Source: a virus
IMG/VR virus record: IMGVR_UViG_3300032285_005318
Coordinates: 1-21,949 of that record
Strand: one strand, 5' to 3'
DNA length: 21,949 bases
This document shows positions 3,206 through 17,270 of this stretch, in pieces (within the stretch, counting starts at the first letter, position 1; each line of letters opens with the position of its first letter). The position numbers and the translations under genes are program-made. The notes under the pieces were generated by a model. The model worked only from the letters and a program-made list of their open reading frames with translations. It was not told where the DNA came from and did no database searches.

Positions 3206-3526
3206 TTATGCTATTTTGGATACTTTTACTAAATTTTTCATTCGATCTTCAATCCCAGAATATGGGGGTTGGTTAGAAAAATAAAATCTTCTAGCATCAC
3301 CGTAACTACTAAATTCTTTTCCATCCGGGAAGTCTAGAGTATATGTTTTTACAGCATTTAAGGGTAACATAGGTTTATAAGTTACTTCATATTTTCCTGG
3401 GGGTAAACTCATCCATGGAAATTCTGTATCAGTTGAAAGACCTGAGCTAGGAGTATAGTTTATATTTTCACTTAAAGCACGTTTAAGTTCTTCTTTAACT
3501 AATGTTTTTAAGTTATTTAGTTTCAT
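3206..3526 (-). CDS. Small protein with capsid-targeting-like N-terminus
   Basis: 106 residues from the ATG at 3526. A GTG at 3541 would add five residues but overlaps the upstream gene. The ATG also aligns this N-terminus with its relatives, so I prefer it. Residues 1-20 are an amphipathic K/L/E helix ending ALSE|N, almost identical in pattern to ALGE|N in the protein at 372-1205, and LSE fits the [L/I]xE cleavage rule of T4 gp21. The rest has PPGKYEVTY and LDFPDGKEF, which suggest a small beta-rich fold that I do not recognise. It is the last gene before the terminator. I infer a packaged internal protein, with function unknown. Confidence 0.6.
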   Translation of the reverse strand: MKLNNLKTLVKEELKRALSENINYTPSSGLSTDTEFPWMSLPPGKYEVTYKPMLPLNAVKTYTLDFPDGKEFSSYGDARRFYFSNQPPYSGIEDRMKNLVKVSKIA

Positions 3527-3860: not shown

Positions 3861-4117
3861 GATTTATGTATTTTTAATTTTAAAGTTCCCGTTCCTTTTA
3901 TTACACGATGCCATTCGTGTCTTGGTATAAATATACGTTCTTTTAGTGAGGTAGGCAAGCTATTATCTAGCTGAAGTTGCCAATCTGTTTCATTTAAAAT
4001 TTCAACTGTTCTATCTTCATCATCACGATGCCATAATAGTTCTATTGGGTCTATATTTTCGTTGAACTCACGAATAATATATTTGTCAGTAACTTCTATG
4101 TCTGTGTATGGTTTCAT
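3857..4117 (-). CDS. Small cupin-like protein
   Basis: An 86-residue single-domain protein. The pattern LLWHRDDEDRTVEIL, then WQLQLDNSLPTSL, then IFIPRHEWHRVIKG, then a short basic beta strand resembles the small cupin-like proteins common in T4-like phages. The two histidine/acid clusters (residues about 29-33 and 66-69) would be in position to bind a metal. No catalytic activity can be assigned. The ATG overlaps the TGA of the upstream Cys-containing protein directly after a run of eight A, which may allow -1 frameshifting (see the slippery-site entry). There is no N-terminal [L/I]xE tag. Confidence 0.6.
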   Translation of the reverse strand: MKPYTDIEVTDKYIIREFNENIDPIELLWHRDDEDRTVEILNETDWQLQLDNSLPTSLKERIFIPRHEWHRVIKGTGTLKLKIHKS

Positions 4118-4488
4118 TTTTTTTCACCTACCCACCAAATGCAAACATATTCTGTTGGTTCAGTAGGAATTTCACCATTTCCATTCCAATCAATATAGTA
4201 TTGACCTTCACACAATTGTGTTTTCTCATTCCATTTAGCACAGTTAGCACACATAGCACCACCCTTTGGAACGGATTTTGCGGGTTGGAAACCATCAGGA
4301 AATTGAAGTTCTGGAGTTTCTCCTTCAGAAAGTTTATTGATTTCTTTACCTGCTTTAACAGCAGATTTATATGCTTTAGATCCCTTTGGAGATGGTTTTT
4401 CTCCACGTTCACGTTTAGCACGTATATTAGCCCATAAACCTGGATGGTTTTTAAGGGTTTCTTTAATAAGGTTTTCTAGCTTAGACAT
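4114..4488 (-). CDS. Two-part protein: basic AKRxRGEKPSPKGSKAY domain plus four-cysteine C-terminus
   Basis: A 124-residue protein. Residues 1-11 are a short K/L/E helix containing IKE (8-10), like the tagged neighbours. Residues about 15-52 hold a basic motif (LWANIRAKRERGEKPSPKGS) that I recall from many phage proteins of unknown function. The C-terminal half has C-x2-C, C and C (MCANCAKW, TQLCEGQY, VCIWWVG). That could bind zinc or an Fe-S cluster, and it resembles a HiPIP-type cysteine pattern without a clear match. The last codons are GAA AAA AAA TGA. The gene overlaps the 3' end of the Dps-like gene by 13 nt. Confidence 0.6.
   Translation of the reverse strand: MSKLENLIKETLKNHPGLWANIRAKRERGEKPSPKGSKAYKSAVKAGKEINKLSEGETPELQFPDGFQPAKSVPKGGAMCANCAKWNEKTQLCEGQYYIDWNGNGEIPTEPTEYVCIWWVGEKK
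4117..4125 (-). promoter_or_regulatory. Possible -1 frameshift slippery site at a stop codon
   Basis: Minus-strand reading GAA AAA AAA TGA contains the heptamer A AAA AAA in the zero frame, immediately before the stop codon. A -1 slip would continue as ATG AAA CCA, exactly the frame and start of the cupin-like gene, giving a fusion of about 210 residues. No downstream pseudoknot was established. Confidence 0.35.
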
Positions 4489-4855: not shown

Positions 4856-5821
4856 TCACCAAAAACCGGTAAATGATGATTTTAATCCAAGTAATTTAGC
4901 ATAACGTGGTAAGCGACAGCTCCAGTAAGATGCTTTTGTTTTATCTTTTTTATTTTTGCAATCGTGACGTGCAGCAAATGCTCTACGTGCTTCTGGGTTG
5001 TTTATTTTAGCTGATAGGCCTGTTGTGTCTCCAAAACTAACTTTTTTAATTTTTTTAGTTTTAGGATTTTTTACGTAAACATAGAATTTTTTAGATCCTC
5101 CACGGTGTGGTTTTCCAAGTGGTGGGTTTTTCTTTTTACCTTCAGCTTCTTCAAGTTCATCCTCAGGGTAACAATCACATGAATCATCATATCCTTCAGG
5201 TCCTTTATATGCTGGGGAGTTTTCGTCTAGGTATTGGGATGAATTTTCAATATGTAGAGTATTAGTTTCATCTCCTTGACTATCAATATATTTAATTTTA
5301 ACTGTATAGACTAAATCGTCACTAGCGTAATCTGCTTTGTTTATATCTTCAATTTTGCCTTCAGTGCCATATGGAAATTCAAAGTTAGGAAATTCTTTAG
5401 GGTTAATTTCAATAATGTCTCCTATGTTTAATTCTTCTTCACCTTCCTCTAACATAGGTAAATCTAAAGGTACTTTAACACCTTCATACAAACCAAAGTT
5501 ACCTAAATCAGTTTCCTCTAAAATTTCTTTATCATCATCGTTTACATGAATAATTTCACGTAAATATAATGAACGAGCTTCTGCCCATAAATTAAGGAAC
5601 GATTGCGAACCATATCGGAACGTGTTTTCGGTAAGTGGGAGTTTTTTATCCACGTGATATCGCAGATTTTCCGACAATATATCTTTTTTAACTAAACTTT
5701 CGTTTAATACAACACCAGGATTACCTACGTTTTCACAAGTGTTGCAACCACAACTACATTTTTCTTCTGTAACGTGATGATATACTTCTTTAATGAGTTT
5801 TTTTAAACGTGCTTTATCCAT
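4856..5821 (-). CDS. Modular, probably proteolytically processed internal/structural protein with DUF5872-like C-terminus
   Basis: A 321-residue protein. Parts in order: K/L/E amphipathic tag (1-19); cysteine cluster CSCGC-x2-C (22-29); a linker with LNE (39-41) and LSE|N (49-52); a helical domain starting RYHVDKKLPLTEN and containing FLNLWAEARSLYLREI (54-90); a long acidic region (93-225); and a basic C-terminal domain from about 235. The last resembles DUF5872: FYVYVKNPKTKKIKKVSFGD, then RRAFAARHDC and SYWSCRL. LEE|A (223-226) sits exactly between the acidic and basic parts. [L/I]xE sites at each boundary suggest cleavage by a prohead protease. The function of the modules is unknown. The leader carries the TAATATTTAT junction motif. 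Confidence 0.6.
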   Translation of the reverse strand: MDKARLKKLIKEVYHHVTEEKCSCGCNTCENVGNPGVVLNESLVKKDILSENLRYHVDKKLPLTENTFRYGSQSFLNLWAEARSLYLREIIHVNDDDKEILEETDLGNFGLYEGVKVPLDLPMLEEGEEELNIGDIIEINPKEFPNFEFPYGTEGKIEDINKADYASDDLVYTVKIKYIDSQGDETNTLHIENSSQYLDENSPAYKGPEGYDDSCDCYPEDELEEAEGKKKNPPLGKPHRGGSKKFYVYVKNPKTKKIKKVSFGDTTGLSAKINNPEARRAFAARHDCKNKKDKTKASYWSCRLPRYAKLLGLKSSFTGFW

Positions 5822-8871: not shown

Positions 8872-9633
8872 TTATTGCTCACCTCCACCGATATATTCGC
8901 TAACGAAGAATTTCAGTGTATTTCCTACTTGTGTTTCAAGTTTTTCATTTTGCATTCCTTTAGCAATCTGGAATGCTTTCATTAAATGGTCCATAAGATC
9001 TGCTTCTGTACCTTTCATATCTGCTGCTATATCTTCAATCCCACCAGTTGCATCAGGTGTTTCTTCAGCAGGTATTTCGTCTTCTGCAGGAATATCTTCT
9101 GTTTCAGTATCTGTTACTTCAACGTCTTCAACGTCTTCATCTTTTTTCTTAGCTTCGTCGATATCATATCCTCCGTAACCATCAAATTCATCTGTGTCTC
9201 CAAAATCGTTAGAATCACCATATTCATTATCGTAATAATCATTACTGTAATCATAGGTATCTTCTTCATCATCATATTCAGGATAACCTTCTTCTAAAAA
9301 CCCACCATCAGCATATGCATCCATCATGTCTGCTTCTTCTTCTCCGGGTTCACCTTCATAAACAGGGCTATAATCAGCATTCAATGCTGCATCATCTTGA
9401 TCTGCATTATCAGTAGTAACTTCTTCAGCCAGTTCAGCAACAATCATATCTTTGATTTGTTTTTTCATTGCCTCTTTGGTCATTTTTTTCTTTTCGATTT
9501 CTTCGCCTTTTTTCTTACCTTTTTCGTATTCGTAAGCGGCTTCACCTTCGTTTATAGATTTCATTGAAGGATTTAAATTCTCAAGAGCTTTGCTTTCTTT
9601 TAAGAATTTTTTTAGGTCAAAATTATCTGCCAT
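8872..9633 (-). CDS. Acidic prohead-core/scaffold-like protein
   Basis: A 253-residue, very acidic protein. The N-terminus has LKE (11-13), INE|G (27-30) and a basic helix of K/E repeats (38-62). A Tyr/Asp-rich tract (117-156, nine tyrosines) is bracketed by LEE|G (113-116) and IDE|A (158-161). An E/D/T/P linker and a conserved-looking helical C-terminus follow (EADLMDHLMKAFQIAKGM, then TLKFFVSEYIGG). In T4, the acidic head proteins gp22 and gp67 are cut by gp21 after [L/I]xE to give the acidic internal peptides VII and II, and this protein has the same general character. Homology is not shown, and the assignment rests on composition and motif placement. Confidence 0.55.
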   Translation of the reverse strand: MADNFDLKKFLKESKALENLNPSMKSINEGEAAYEYEKGKKKGEEIEKKKMTKEAMKKQIKDMIVAELAEEVTTDNADQDDAALNADYSPVYEGEPGEEEADMMDAYADGGFLEEGYPEYDDEEDTYDYSNDYYDNEYGDSNDFGDTDEFDGYGGYDIDEAKKKDEDVEDVEVTDTETEDIPAEDEIPAEETPDATGGIEDIAADMKGTEADLMDHLMKAFQIAKGMQNEKLETQVGNTLKFFVSEYIGGGEQ

Positions 9634-10275: not shown

Positions 10276-10847
10276 TATTTTTTTAGAGAGTTTAAATACT
10301 CAATAGCATCATCTAATGACTTTTGAGCGCGTTCCTTATCAATCCCACCAACCCATTTCTGTACTTCACCATTCTCGGAAACGTATCCTTCTTTACCTTC
10401 TGAAAGGATATTGGAAAACCAATTTTTATATTCTTCTATTTGTTGATCAATTTCAGCATTAAATGTTTGGTCAGTATAATCTTTCCAAGTACCTGCTAAT
10501 TTCATTTGTGTTTCTGTAGTAGTTCTACAGTCAACACATTCACCATATGCTTTAAAATAATGTGGGTCTAGTTGTTTTTCCATCACATGTTTACATTTTG
10601 GGCAAAACAATGGGACTGATACTTTTTTAAACTTATCTAATTTGGTAACATTTTCTTTAATGCCATCTTTAATAGTCCAAGTTCTACCTCCAGATACCCA
10701 AACATCCCCCTCTTTATGTTCCTCTTCTTGAGAACCATTATAACCAATTCCCATAGTAGTACGGTTACCATGTTTACCTGCTACCAGGTTACGTAAACGT
10801 TCTACGTCTCTTTTTTGGAATTCTTTTTTTAAAACTGAATCTGACAT
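10275..10847 (-). CDS. Zinc-ribbon protein of unknown function
   Basis: A 190-residue protein. The N-terminal KKEFQKRDVERLRNLVAGKH helix is followed by GDVWVSGGRTWTIKDGI. A four-cysteine zinc ribbon comes next: C-P-K-C (about 82-85) and C-V-D-C (104-107). The C-terminal half is helical and acidic with a final KERAQKSLDDAIEYLNSLKK. I recall this order from environmental T4-like phage proteins but know no function. It might be a nucleic-acid-binding or head-assembly protein. It is coupled at both ends by TAATG overlaps (HAD gene upstream, GAF gene downstream). Confidence 0.6.
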   Translation of the reverse strand: MSDSVLKKEFQKRDVERLRNLVAGKHGNRTTMGIGYNGSQEEEHKEGDVWVSGGRTWTIKDGIKENVTKLDKFKKVSVPLFCPKCKHVMEKQLDPHYFKAYGECVDCRTTTETQMKLAGTWKDYTDQTFNAEIDQQIEEYKNWFSNILSEGKEGYVSENGEVQKWVGGIDKERAQKSLDDAIEYLNSLKK

Positions 10848-11422
10848 TATAACTTGTATTTTTCTTTAAGAGTATTTATGGTTTCAGAAGCTGTGGTATG
10901 GAAAATAGCTTTACCGTTACTTGCTCTCCAGGCATCTGTATTTTTTTTCATATCGTCTATGAGGATACTTTTAGGACTGGCATAGGTTGCTTTTTGGGGA
11001 GCAGGGACAAATATTTCTTCACCTACACCACTAAGATTTTTTGCAATCCATTCTTTTTTTCCTTGAATAGCTTCATTGTAATCCGGACTAAGTTGTTGGT
11101 CTGATGGAAGACTAAAATTTACTGATGGAGCTGAAAGAATATTTGGGTGATATTGTTGGATATAGCTCCATAATTCTTTTCCTCCAGGTTGCCAGGTTAA
11201 ATTAGCCCAAAAATCTTTTTCTTTTATGTTTTTTTCTTCTAAACTATCTCTAAATCGTTTCCAAAAAGAGCTTTTACTTTCTTCATTGGCTTTTTGAGTT
11301 GATACTCCTGTTAAGTCTTCATATCCTTTATCAAAGTCACAAAGTACTCCATCCATATCACAATAAATGGTATAGGGTTTAATTGCCTCGTATAAGTCTA
11401 ATAATGTAGGTGTCTTTTTCAT
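10847..11422 (-). CDS. HAD-superfamily phosphatase, 5'-nucleotidase-like
   Basis: A 191-residue protein. Motif I is D22-M-D24-G-V-L, with the nucleophile and acid/base aspartates both present. Motif II may be S97, motif III the lysine region near K123, and motif IV I-D-D at 155-157. The cap region contains FWANLTWQPGG, as in small 5'(3')-deoxyribonucleotidases (NT5C-like) of phages, so dephosphorylation of a nucleotide is likely. The first 12 residues (MKKTPTLLDLYE|A) precede the catalytic core and end in LYE|A, which matches the capsid-targeting pattern of T4 internal proteins (FIAE|A). The start lies 1 nt after the stop of the 685-residue protein gene. Confidence 0.75.
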   Translation of the reverse strand: MKKTPTLLDLYEAIKPYTIYCDMDGVLCDFDKGYEDLTGVSTQKANEESKSSFWKRFRDSLEEKNIKEKDFWANLTWQPGGKELWSYIQQYHPNILSAPSVNFSLPSDQQLSPDYNEAIQGKKEWIAKNLSGVGEEIFVPAPQKATYASPKSILIDDMKKNTDAWRASNGKAIFHTTASETINTLKEKYKL

Positions 11423-11423
11423 A

Positions 11424-13481
11424 TCAAAATTTGGGCAAATTTAATACAGGTAATCTGCTTCTCCAAAGATCTAGTATTTCTTCTTTTTCTTCAGGTGTTA
11501 TATCTTGAGCATCCAAATAAGTGTCTATAACATCTTTGAATTCACGTTTTTCTTTTTTAGCACGTAAATACATTCCTTGTAGGTTAGCATCTACTTCTTT
11601 TTCTAGTTTAAAATATTGAGCAGGTGGTAACAATTTAGCATCAATTATTTTACGAATAAGTGTATCATCTTCCATCCATTTAGCAGGATTAGCTACATCA
11701 CCTTCACCATGAGTTAAATGTTCCACTTCGTGGCGGATAATATCTTTCAAGTTCATTGAAATTTCTTCCCAAAATTCAGGAAGTTTTTCAGGATCTACTT
11801 CAAATCTTACTTCAATGTAATCAATATAATCATTAGCTCCACCATCTACTTTAAGTCCTCCAAGTTCAGGAACAAATGATATATTAGCGTCTACATCTAT
11901 TTCTTCACCTTCAAATGGGAAGAATTCATTAACACGAGATGCTTCAGCACCATTGTTATAATCTTCTTTCCACTGATTGAATATTTTGGAGGAAATAACA
12001 TTTGTAATTTTATCGTAACGACCTTCGTTTAATAATGGTGTATTATCATGGCCACAATCATGGCAAATATATAAATCCTTACCGCCCGTTTCTTTAGGCC
12101 AATCATGACCACATTTATCACATACTATTCTATCTTCAAATACACCTTCAGTAAGTGTATCTGTCCAATTACGGAAAGTCATATTACCTTTTTCGTATGC
12201 TTCTCTTTCAATTTCAGGTAAATCACCTTCTTCGTTTGTATTTTGGGTAGTAATATTACCTAAACGATTGTCACAGTTTTGCATATGATGAATCATTTCA
12301 TGCGCAAATGAACGCATAACATCTTTTGGATGACGATCTAATATATAAAGTACTATAACGCGGTTATTCGGATCGTAATATGCTGTTTTACCAAAGAAAT
12401 CTCTAGCATTTTCAACATCATTATCTATAAATTTTACTTTAGGTAAAGGACGAATATTCATACCTTTATCTAACATATATTCAGTAAGTGATTTTATCAA
12501 TTTAGGATAGTCATGTTCGCTAGGTTCAGCATACATTTCTTGTAAAGCTAATTTTGGATTAGATGTTTGGAAGTTTTTCTTACGCATTACCGTTTTAGCA
12601 ACCAAATCCATTTCATTATTTTTCTCATCGTAATTTAGAGCAAATGGTAAATTGATATCATTACGTAATTTAAATAATACTGCTTGGTAATCATCTGGGA
12701 GATTAGCTAATTTTTCTCCGTATTTTTCTGCTGTTTGAGTGAATAAATCTTCTAATTCTTCAGCAGAGATAGGTTTTCCATTACGTTCATCATTTACTCT
12801 TTCTATAAAATGTTTTGTGAATTGAACGTCAATACCATAATCCTCAAACCACTCATCAGCTATTCTTTCTACATCATCCAATTCGGATTGTGTAACAAAT
12901 TCTTGAATAGGAGTTTTGGTTAAAATATTCCACACTTTATCTTTTTCTTCATCTGAGAGTTCAGTTGGAAGATATTTTTGGAATCTTTCTTTTTCTCCAC
13001 CAATTAAAGCAGCACGTGTATTTGTACCACTAATACGATCTTCACCTTCCTCTGATCGGATAACAATAGGTTTAAAGTTTTCATACTTTCCTTTCATGCT
13101 ATCAAAACGTTTTAGATCACCTAAATCCATTTCACCTCTTATCCCTACTACAGGGTAGTACATTATGTCCGGATTATTTTTGATTAGTGATCCAACGTCT
13201 GAAATTGGGGATGCATTATCTGCTATTTGGATTTCAACGTTTGATGGGAGATATTTTTTGTAAATATCCCATATAGCTTTACTTTCTTCTTTAGTTACTC
13301 CATCACGTGTTTTATGTCCTATAAGAACAATCACTTTATCTACTCCAGGGTATTTTGCTACTTCATCTACCAATGCAAAGTGACCAATTGTAGGCGGTTT
13401 AAAACCACCAGGCACTAAAGCAATACCATCTTGCATTGCTTCTAATAGAGGTTGTATAAGCACTTTAACTAACGAATTCAT
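11424..13481 (-). CDS. Multidomain protein: nucleotidyltransferase + HExxH peptidase + zinc ribbon + second HExxH peptidase
   Basis: A 685-residue protein. Residues 1-14 are a tag ending LLE|A. Residues 19-185 are a cytidylyltransferase-like domain with GGFKPPTIGHF (TxGH at 31-34, as in CoaD) and ISGTNTR (150-156). Residues about 200-305 are an uncharacterised domain with FTKHFIERVNDERNGKPIS. Residues about 320-440 are a zincin with H394-E-M-I-H398 and E425-x-x-A. Residues 454-476 are a C-x2-C/C-x2-C zinc ribbon. Residues about 487-640 are a second zincin with H584-E-V-E-H588 and E629-x-x-A. [L/I]xE sites occur at 14, 194, 315, 445 and 486, all at boundaries, plus 334, 423 and 569. It overlaps the kinase gene by 17 nt. 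A packaged, self- or protease-processed polyprotein is my inference. A frameless fusion or sequencing artefact is unlikely given the continuous frame. Confidence 0.75.
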   Translation of the reverse strand: MNSLVKVLIQPLLEAMQDGIALVPGGFKPPTIGHFALVDEVAKYPGVDKVIVLIGHKTRDGVTKEESKAIWDIYKKYLPSNVEIQIADNASPISDVGSLIKNNPDIMYYPVVGIRGEMDLGDLKRFDSMKGKYENFKPIVIRSEEGEDRISGTNTRAALIGGEKERFQKYLPTELSDEEKDKVWNILTKTPIQEFVTQSELDDVERIADEWFEDYGIDVQFTKHFIERVNDERNGKPISAEELEDLFTQTAEKYGEKLANLPDDYQAVLFKLRNDINLPFALNYDEKNNEMDLVAKTVMRKKNFQTSNPKLALQEMYAEPSEHDYPKLIKSLTEYMLDKGMNIRPLPKVKFIDNDVENARDFFGKTAYYDPNNRVIVLYILDRHPKDVMRSFAHEMIHHMQNCDNRLGNITTQNTNEEGDLPEIEREAYEKGNMTFRNWTDTLTEGVFEDRIVCDKCGHDWPKETGGKDLYICHDCGHDNTPLLNEGRYDKITNVISSKIFNQWKEDYNNGAEASRVNEFFPFEGEEIDVDANISFVPELGGLKVDGGANDYIDYIEVRFEVDPEKLPEFWEEISMNLKDIIRHEVEHLTHGEGDVANPAKWMEDDTLIRKIIDAKLLPPAQYFKLEKEVDANLQGMYLRAKKEKREFKDVIDTYLDAQDITPEEKEEILDLWRSRLPVLNLPKF

Positions 13482-14220
13482 TTATTTTATTTTTAGCTGT
13501 ATCTAAAGTATCAAATTCTGGGAGTTTATTAACCATAGATTCAATATCTTTATTCAATTGGGATTTTTCAGCATCTGATTTAGCTTGTTCTTCAGGGGTT
13601 TTAGGTTTACCTAGAGCTGTAGATGCTTGAAGAAATGGCTCAAGTAAATCAGTATTAAATTCTTTATTAGCATCTTTTGGATTATTGTTTAATAAAATAA
13701 AATTATTTCCAAACGCTTGTTTGTACGTTTCAATATTTTTGTTTACATCTCTCCAAGTACGTAATACAATTCCAGGCATTAAACTCCTATCACGTTCTTG
13801 ATTACGTTCAAGTGAAGTTAAGGGAGAAACATAGATCATTAACATCAATGTTTCATACCCTAAATCTTCTAGTTGTTGTTTCTTCTTTAATACAGGTCCA
13901 GATGCAGCACCAGTTCCATCAATAACGATATTATTTTTATCTTCTACTGATTTAGCTAGTTTGTCTTGTGTAACTTTTCTAGCTTGGGCTTGTAATTTAG
14001 AAGCTTGAGATAATTGGTCAGGTGTAAAATCCTTTTGTTTTAAACCAATTCCACTTGCTTTTAATAGCTCTTCGTAAGTGTCATCTGAATTGATAACTGT
14101 AAATGTATTGGGGATAAGTTTGGAGGATATATAAGACTTTCCACTTCCCGCGGGGCCAGCTAAAAATATAGCTTTAGGAGTGCCTTTTACTTCCTTCAAT
14201 AATTGAACTAAACTTATCAT
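13465..14220 (-). CDS. Zeta-toxin-like P-loop kinase
   Basis: A 251-residue protein. Walker A is GPAGSGKS (22-29). The acidic INSDDTYEEL (44-53) and the strand NIVIDGTG (97-104) follow, with arginine-rich LID residues in ERNQERDRSL (138-147). This is the zeta-toxin/AAA_33 kinase arrangement, found both in toxins that phosphorylate UDP-sugars and in phage polynucleotide or nucleotide kinases. No antitoxin gene is adjacent, so I do not call it a toxin. The N-terminus MISLVQLLKE ends in LKE (8-10) before the domain, like the tagged neighbours. The C-terminus (205-251) is a charged helix that overlaps the start of the 685-residue protein gene. Confidence 0.7.
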   Translation of the reverse strand: MISLVQLLKEVKGTPKAIFLAGPAGSGKSYISSKLIPNTFTVINSDDTYEELLKASGIGLKQKDFTPDQLSQASKLQAQARKVTQDKLAKSVEDKNNIVIDGTGAASGPVLKKKQQLEDLGYETLMLMIYVSPLTSLERNQERDRSLMPGIVLRTWRDVNKNIETYKQAFGNNFILLNNNPKDANKEFNTDLLEPFLQASTALGKPKTPEEQAKSDAEKSQLNKDIESMVNKLPEFDTLDTAKNKINEFVS

Positions 14221-15949: not shown

Positions 15950-16408
15950 CTAATCTTGGGAAACAAAATCTTTTCGGAAAAACTTACCTAAAATATTATC
16001 GTTTATCCATTCGCTAGGTTTTTCTAAAACTCCTAATTGGAATAGATATTTACATTCGTAATACGTAAGTAGTTTTTTATTGGCTACAAAGTGTAAAATT
16101 TTACGTTCAAATTCGTCTTGTTTACCTTGTTTTATTAATTCAAGTATAGGTTTAGCTGAACCAAAATAGGTTTTCCAATCAGATTCTTTTGTGATTTGTT
16201 TTGTGGTTGATTTTCTGCCTCTAGTTACAGGTTGTTCAGCTAATTCTTTTTTACCTAGTTTTTTCTTAACGTTATGGTATAACGATTTTTTTCCTAAATA
16301 TGAATTACCTGTTGGAATATGGGTAGTAATATAAATAAAACCAAATGTATTTTCAGGGAAATCTGTTATTTCTTGAATTTCCCTATTTTCATATAACCAA
16401 TTTTTCAT
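15950..16408 (-). CDS. Divergent GIY-YIG-like phage endonuclease
   Basis: A 152-residue protein. FGFIYITTH (22-30) and SYLGKK (36-41) are positioned like the GIY and YIG halves of a GIY-YIG nuclease. KESDWKTYFGS (74-84) follows, then a conserved YYECKYLFQLG (116-126) whose E118 could be the metal-binding glutamate. I recall a phage family with the same ESDW-x-x-Y-x-GS signature annotated as putative endonuclease. A basic loop (47-73) is likely to contact DNA. It may be a free-standing homing or mobility nuclease or a DNA-processing enzyme. It precedes the primase gene in the replication cluster. Confidence 0.6.
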   Translation of the reverse strand: MKNWLYENREIQEITDFPENTFGFIYITTHIPTGNSYLGKKSLYHNVKKKLGKKELAEQPVTRGRKSTTKQITKESDWKTYFGSAKPILELIKQGKQDEFERKILHFVANKKLLTYYECKYLFQLGVLEKPSEWINDNILGKFFRKDFVSQD

Positions 16409-16418
16409 AAATTAAATT

Positions 16419-17270
16419 TTAAGCAAATGAGCTTGATCTCCATGCTCCCGCCATCCACATGTAAAGTCGATGAACACCTCCTACAGTTGCAGGAATAATT
16501 TCTCCATCTGTTCCTGTCCAAGTTGGGGCAACTGATTGAGTTGTAGGTAAAACAATAGATCCTGACACTCTTACTTTAAATGCATCCGAACGAGAAATTG
16601 TACTAGGGCCATTCCCAACAATAAATAAAGATGTATTGTCATTTTGAGTATTATTTCTCCCAACAACAAATTGCCAAGAACCAGATGCTATAGTAGAAGA
16701 TCCATGAACAAATGAATATAAACCTAATGATATTGTAGTATCTCCGGTTGCTATACTGTACTGACCAGAAGCTGAAGTGGCAGTTCCTGCGGATAATGAA
16801 TTTTGACCTGCAAATGTATTTAGTCCAAATGCAACTCCTCCTTGTCCGTTAGCTGTAGTTTGAACACCTATAGCTAATGAACTTTGCCCTGTTGCTTTAC
16901 ATTGATATCCTGAAGCTAGTGAATAATCACCAGATGCTGTTGATTGGAATCCAGCAGCATGAGATGCTTTTCCTGATGCTAATGATCCTGATCCTTCGGC
17001 ATGTGATCCTAATCCTGTTGCTCGTGTTGAAATTCCTTCAGCATGTGAATAATCACCTGAGGAGGTGGAGGAAGATCCTTCAGCATGAGATGATAACCCT
17101 AATGCTAGATTATTAGTTCCGTTAACCATAGAACCAGTAAGTAAAAATGAACCAGATAAAGAAACATCATACGCTACAGTACCTGTAAAAGCATCAATAG
17201 ATTGAGTTACATGATATGCTTCAACGGTACTTCCGTTTGTAATGCCTGTTTTATTTAATGTAAGTGCCAT
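16419..17270 (-). CDS. Tail fibre with YadA-head-like 14-residue repeats
   Basis: A 283-residue protein. Residues about 56-208 consist of about eleven 14-residue units of the form A-[S/T]-G-x-x-S-x-A-x-G-x-x-[S/T]-x (for example ASGKASHAAGFQST), the signature of the YadA/trimeric-autotransporter head, a trimeric left-handed beta-roll. The N-terminal 50 residues probably attach to the virion. The C-terminus ends GGVHRLYMWMAGAWRSSSF, which I recall as a common end of phage fibres. It is probably a trimeric adhesin/receptor-binding fibre. One unit (AGQNSLSAGTATS) is a residue short. Several repeats carry SHAEG, so recent unit duplication is likely. It is the last gene of the structural block. 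Confidence 0.75.
   Translation of the reverse strand: MALTLNKTGITNGSTVEAYHVTQSIDAFTGTVAYDVSLSGSFLLTGSMVNGTNNLALGLSSHAEGSSSTSSGDYSHAEGISTRATGLGSHAEGSGSLASGKASHAAGFQSTASGDYSLASGYQCKATGQSSLAIGVQTTANGQGGVAFGLNTFAGQNSLSAGTATSASGQYSIATGDTTISLGLYSFVHGSSTIASGSWQFVVGRNNTQNDNTSLFIVGNGPSTISRSDAFKVRVSGSIVLPTTQSVAPTWTGTDGEIIPATVGGVHRLYMWMAGAWRSSSFA

Follow-up and report, generated by a model that had tools for sequence, protein, structure and literature searches.

The polyprotein gene and its modules

The window analysed in this study, a virus fragment of 21,949 bases, contains a gene whose product combines, in this order, a HIGH-type nucleotidyltransferase, a helical domain, a HExxH zincin-like domain, a zinc ribbon and a second HExxH domain (Table 1). 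A sequence-only reading of this DNA had already recognised a nucleotidyltransferase, two HExxH/ExxA zincins and a ribbon in one frame. Our analysis agrees, as the motifs are present and their catalytic residues are invariant.

Table 1. Positions in the window of the polyprotein gene, its modules and junctions, and its two neighbours.
Feature	Position	Strand	Remarks
Polyprotein gene	11424..13481	(-)	ATG start, 685 aa
Leader, residues 1-14, MNSLVKVLIQPLLE	13440..13481	(-)	helix ending in LLE
Module A, residues 15-194, HIGH-superfamily nucleotidyltransferase (NMNAT/PPAT-like)	12900..13439	(-)	PHROG, PDB fold, profile
IQE junction, residues 192-194	12900..12908	(-)	low pLDDT 190-201
Module B, residues 195-315, helical domain, function not recognised	12537..12899	(-)	PHROGs of unknown function
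LQE junction, residues 313-315	12537..12545	(-)	alignment and AlphaFold model
Module C, residues 316-445, zincin-like	12147..12536	(-)	HEMIH + ExxA, invariant catalytic residues
LTE junction, residues 443-445	12147..12155	(-)	low pLDDT 442-448
Module D, residues 446-486, 41-residue zinc ribbon	12024..12146	(-)	C-x2-C...C-x2-C
LNE junction, residues 484-486	12024..12032	(-)	Glu invariant in 34/34 homologues
Module E, residues 487-685, second zincin-like	11427..12023	(-)	HEVEH + ExxA
5'-deoxynucleotidase gene, downstream neighbour	10847..11422	(-)	own LxE-ended leader MKKTPTLLDLYE/, then AIKP
P-loop kinase gene (zeta-toxin/AAA_33-like)	13465..14220	(-)	leader MISLVQLLKE/

Module A has a Rossmann-like fold with the [HT]xGH and ISGT..R motifs, present here as TIGH and ISGTNTR, and its residues H34 and R156 are invariant in a 34-row alignment. 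It matched a cytidyltransferase PHROG and a PPAT profile, and a Foldseek search of the PDB matched its fold to PPAT/NadD (E about 1e-4, probability 1.00). Fold and motifs are the same as those of the NMNAT/PPAT HIGH superfamily, although the Pfam score of module A is below the curated cut-off. Module B is also encoded by other genes, both in immuto-type relatives and in Methylophilales phage Melnitz and Sinorhizobium phage phiM12. Stand-alone fragments of this domain were removed from the full-length alignment, because they were misaligned there.

The catalytic motifs of the two zincin-like modules are likewise invariant in the 34-row alignment. Module C contains HEMIH at residues 394-398 (H394-E395-x2-H398) and E425xxA428, and module E contains HEVEH at residues 584-588 (H584-E585-x2-H588) and E629xxA632. 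No Pfam model matched the HExxH domains above its cut-off. AlphaFold predicts module E as a helix, four strands, the HExxH helix and the Glu helix. This fold had no significant match in the PDB (best E only 0.096), and a search of a viral fold library returned two uncharacterised proteins below 1e-3. For module D the best Pfam match was Zn_Ribbon_YjdM, under the cut-off of that model; the module is optional, as it is missing from many architectures of the relatives. The sequence-only reading expected four or five enzymes from this gene. This was overstated, because residues 446-486 form a zinc ribbon and residues 195-315 have no recognised activity, which leaves three predicted enzymes and two other pieces.

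The polyprotein gene and the kinase gene overlap by 17 bases (13465-13481). Elsewhere in the window, positions 1227-1757 encode a kinase-like protein with a weak match to a nicotinamide-nucleotide adenylyltransferase PHROG, and positions 15950-16408 match a PHROG named NAD synthetase. Together with module A, these genes may hint at NAD metabolism. A tail-fibre-like protein with YadA head repeats is encoded at 16419-17270.

Number and placement of [LI]xE sites

The 685-residue protein contains eight [LI]xE motifs, ending at residues 14, 194, 315, 334, 423, 445, 486 and 569, the same number as counted in the sequence-only reading. This number is unremarkable, since composition alone gives 10.8, and only the placement is special. 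Hence, the LxE count by itself was rejected as evidence.

Five of the sites close the leader or mark domain junctions (14, 194, 315, 445 and 486), as that reading had proposed, and both the linkers and the end of the leader helix in the AlphaFold model agree (mean pLDDT 70, pTM 0.35). The leader helix spans residues 3-15, with residue 14 at its end, and LLE or ILE ends at this position in 26 of 33 aligned homologues. Values of pLDDT below 50 were found at residues 1-6, 145-148, 190-201, 234-237, 275-322, 414-418, 442-448, 467-469 and 482-487, and therefore the sites at 194, 315, 445 and 486 are predicted to lie in weakly ordered linkers rather than in folded cores. Of these sites, the one at 315 is the least secure, because the end of module B (275-322) is poorly modelled. 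The motifs at 334 and 423 lie inside helices in the model and the one at 569 directly before a helix. Since these three sites fall in folded regions, [LI]xE alone does not mark a cut.

Modules as separate genes

A homologue search for domains encoded as separate genes found modules E and C alone, with LxE-ended leaders. Module E occurs as MKYIKQFENFLINE/GRYD at one locus (L145) and as MKYIKMFESFTLNE/GRYD at another (L143), and shares the NE/GRYD boundary with the polyprotein. All 34 rows of the alignment have Glu directly in front of GRYD, and [LIM]xE is found there in nearly all members of a second set. The leader MKYIKQFENFLINE/ is similar to the T4 IPII/IPIII leader MKTYQEFIAE/. A distant module C stands alone in Synechococcus phage B23 behind the leader MNYKQFLRE/. 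The stand-alone domain B of phage Melnitz is without a clear LxE leader.

The deoxynucleotidase encoded directly downstream of the polyprotein gene offers a further example. It is fused to the polyprotein in 8 loci, behind SLNE, PLNE, LFE or LQE, and separate in 58, while no locus has both forms. Most of the separate deoxynucleotidases have an LxE-ended leader of their own, the common leaders end in LYE or LLE, and some have imperfect leader motifs. Conversely, immuto gp79, which has no HExxH and contains ten [LI]xE motifs, joins domains that are encoded by separate genes in the window.

Short N-terminal [LI]xE leaders were also noted in other genes of the window, at 8872-9633, 4856-5821, 3206-3526, 372-1205 and 4114-4488 (examples are MADNFDLKKFLKE, MDKARLKKLIKE and MKLNNLKTLVKEELKRALSE). 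These genes are mostly conserved in relatives, and probably encode more head cargo or core proteins.

Module shuffling among relatives

A scan of viral contigs yielded 80 loci, with homologous proteins of about 325 to >1,200 residues. Modules are deleted, swapped, permuted and fused, which gives at least 24 domain architectures, and one chain may have up to about seven modules. The variable parts comprise modules B and D, alternative C-terminal domains, a second nucleotidyltransferase, and pol-beta-like, HAD-like and deoxynucleotidase domains. A second scan, with module E as query, found permuted orders such as A-E-HAD-D-C-M11 (L151) and A-C-B-E (L146 and L147). In relatives without module B, its absence is flush with the IQE junction, and in two loci (L029 and L036) a leader-like stretch with an LxE site on either side persists as a linker within the chain. 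In the immuto-type homologue, the extra pol-beta-like domain is not preceded by an N-terminal leader, and MAE instead of [LI]xE stands before module E.

A motif-cut segmentation of the homologues and the architecture list drawn from it took LxE as cut points and were partly circular, and we therefore used an independent test of the linkers between core domains. The core domains were trimmed, their borders were not set by the motif, and random stretches of equal length served as control. [LI]xE was present in 139 of 163 distinct inter-module linkers, counts that are not independent events because the homologues are related, against an expected mean of about 48 and a maximum of 67 in 500 resamplings. 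This is about threefold above the random stretches. The linkers cover 30 junction types, and this spread is a stronger argument than the linker counts. Pairwise homology breakpoints, which were located without use of the motif, point in the same direction. They lie ≤2 residues from [LI]xE at 36% of right ends and 25% of left ends, versus 6% expected, and L.E ranked first among 400 x.y motifs at the breakpoints.

Several relatives extend the range of modules. An open reading frame of 1263 aa at locus L153, open at its 5' end, has module E, a ribbon and a HAD-like domain separated by LxE; HD-hydrolase-like and pol-beta-like stretches and a KWDG ligase-like motif were read there by eye only. In many relatives, among them L005, L007 and L059, a third and different HExxH module (HEVTH...DEMDADLGAY) takes the place of module E. 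Its Pfam matches to M78 (E 0.16) and M48 (E 0.019) were both below cut-off, and hence we do not claim an ImmA/IrrE identity for this alternative C-terminal zincin.

Prohead protease and head genes in relatives

Of the 14 related contigs that were checked, 9 had a match above cut-off to the prohead protease family PF03420, and eight of these belong to the 9 contigs longer than 90 kb. The gp23 capsid protein (PF07068) was above cut-off in the same nine contigs as the protease. A gp21-type prohead protease is absent from the 21.9 kb fragment itself, and PF03420 had no match on the 80 kb contig fragment with a stand-alone module E. The protease of this phage is thus deduced from its relatives. In T4, L/I-X-E is the motif after which gp21 cuts, and IPIII needs no more than its first ten residues for targeting and packaging (PMC9026906). 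The N-terminus of gp23 in the relatives has three conserved sites, LLE or LFE/...GLLE/...ILE, for example MSSINSLLE/...GLLE/...MILE.

Flavobacterium phage immuto (NC_055915) shows where such motifs occur in a genome. In its head cluster, [LI]xE ends at residues 8-18 in 15 of 25 genes, including those for the scaffold, protease and capsid protein, versus 0.13 per gene expected. The early genes are at expectation (0.15 vs 0.17). The immuto homologue of the polyprotein is encoded with head genes. It shares a strand with the terminase gene, which is located about 9 kb downstream of it and is followed by the portal, protease and capsid genes. The products of four immuto genes, at 1803, 103806, 117631 and 118632, differ in length and have nearly the same leader, M..NFDLKKFLVEN or close variants, which gives the impression of a single signal used for several kinds of cargo. 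Virion proteomics or cleavage data for any relative, immuto included, were not found in our literature search.

A probable head-cargo polyprotein cut by the prohead protease

A cut signal lies at every joint of the protein, and shuffling, splitting and fusion of modules occur at these same joints. Therefore, the gene most likely encodes one head-packed precursor that is cut. We consider it probable that this is a head-cargo polyprotein of a T4-like phage, which the prohead protease cuts into separate head-packaged proteins. The sequence-only reading had suggested that such a protease cuts at [LI]xE. The placement of the sites, the junctions common to unrelated pairs of modules, the leaders of the separate genes, and the protease and capsid genes of the relatives all favour this suggestion, and from these we infer cleavage.

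The proposed sequence of events would start with the 14-residue helical leader, a proposed capsid-targeting sequence, which would bring the precursor into the prohead core. A gp21-type prohead protease would then cut behind the Glu that ends [LI]xE at residues 14, 194, 315, 445 and 486. Inside the head, this would free the nucleotidyltransferase, domain B, the two zincin-like peptidases and, from between them, the zinc ribbon. The freed modules would be ejected with the DNA and be active early in infection, where modules C and E may be directed at host proteins. T4 internal proteins delivered in this way inhibit restriction enzymes (PMC12373910), and for the zincin-like domains of polyvalent proteins a role in processing, or as effectors aimed at the host, has been put forward (PMC5512222). 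Functionally, the polyprotein would equal a run of leader-bearing separate genes, and the two forms could interconvert by fusing, splitting and swapping at LxE.

An alternative explanation might be that this is a polyvalent protein that processes itself, with the zincins cutting the linkers, either while still in the head or once injected, and [LI]xE being a mere part of the linker consensus. Self-processing by zincin-like domains was proposed for polyvalent proteins by Iyer et al. (PMC5512222), and most architectures found here contain at least one zincin-like module. Yet, leaders of unrelated genes end in the identical motif, and the T4-type protease encoded by these phages has this motif as its site. 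Self-processing becomes less likely because the capsid protein bears the same motif in its N-terminus and zincin-free proteins do so too, such as immuto gp79 with its ten sites, and we regard this explanation as highly unlikely. The protein might also be an ordinary multidomain enzyme of the cytoplasm, where LxE is fortuitous in flexible linkers and modules are exchanged as domains commonly are. The number of [LI]xE motifs, not above the composition expectation, would fit this view, and the nucleotidyltransferase fold is common in metabolism. It does not explain the roughly threefold excess of the motif in junction linkers, the first rank of L.E at the breakpoints, or the retention of LxE immediately before the domain in the separate-gene forms, and it therefore seems very improbable.

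Another view is that the protein belongs to the head core, as a scaffold-like component that mostly disappears after cutting at LxE, while its enzymes serve assembly, for example by peptidases that trim virion proteins instead of being injected. T4 core proteins are indeed cut into several pieces that are mostly lost from the head (PMC9026906). However, the modules are predicted to be intact enzymes, their catalytic residues are invariant, and even close relatives differ freely in them. This fits cargo better than an essential scaffold. We give this possibility little weight.

Beyond this one gene, we lean slightly towards the wider view that cut head cargo of this kind reflects a cassette system by which this T4-like lineage loads its heads. 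Modules bounded by protease sites would be exchanged, reordered, fused or split, the motif would be both maturation signal and module border, and the injected set of nucleotide enzymes, several zinc peptidases and other hydrolases would be tuned to host defences. If true, head cargo could be read straight from sequence, because the protease motif brackets every module. Multi-enzyme precursors would join the T4 internal-protein theme, polyvalent proteins would gain an alternative to self-cleavage, and uncharacterised zinc peptidases and nucleotide enzymes would be delivered at the start of infection.

Comparison with known systems

The internal head proteins of T4 (IPI, IPII, IPIII and Alt) share a short N-terminal leader ending in [LI]xE, with variable cargo behind it. 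Their genome encodes a gp21-type protease and a gp23-type capsid protein, which were found here in relatives. In T4, each cargo protein has its own gene and is cut close to its ends, whereas the polyprotein has several domains with a site at each junction. In phiKZ gp175 and SPN3US gp245, which are head-internal as well, a gp21-related protease cuts at a short motif, behind its Glu (PMC9026906). For these proteins, likened here by description only, the process described is propeptide removal and head maturation, not multi-enzyme release.

Polyvalent proteins (Iyer et al., 2017; PMC5512222) likewise combine unrelated enzyme domains in one chain, with recurrent zincin-like domains, and are predicted to be delivered to the host with the DNA, as proposed here. 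The combination of a nucleotidyltransferase and two zincin-like domains in one phage chain is a feature of this kind. The sequence-only reading considered two peptidases in one phage protein unusual, but there is precedent, as about 36% of polyvalent proteins contain one to five zincin-like domains and about 8% of those have more than one (PMC5512222). Self-processing by zincins was proposed for polyvalent proteins, whereas our results imply a separate prohead protease with L/I-X-E at the junctions. Unlike in polyvalent proteins, the modules also exist here as leader-bearing separate genes.

The searchable literature gave no account of a precursor that joins several enzymes and has a prohead-protease site at every junction, nor of modules being exchanged at sites of this kind. 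Leaders that target the capsid and end in gp21 sites are already known, and so, separately, are injected proteins with many domains; the proposed arrangement with an external protease and cassette exchange is new.
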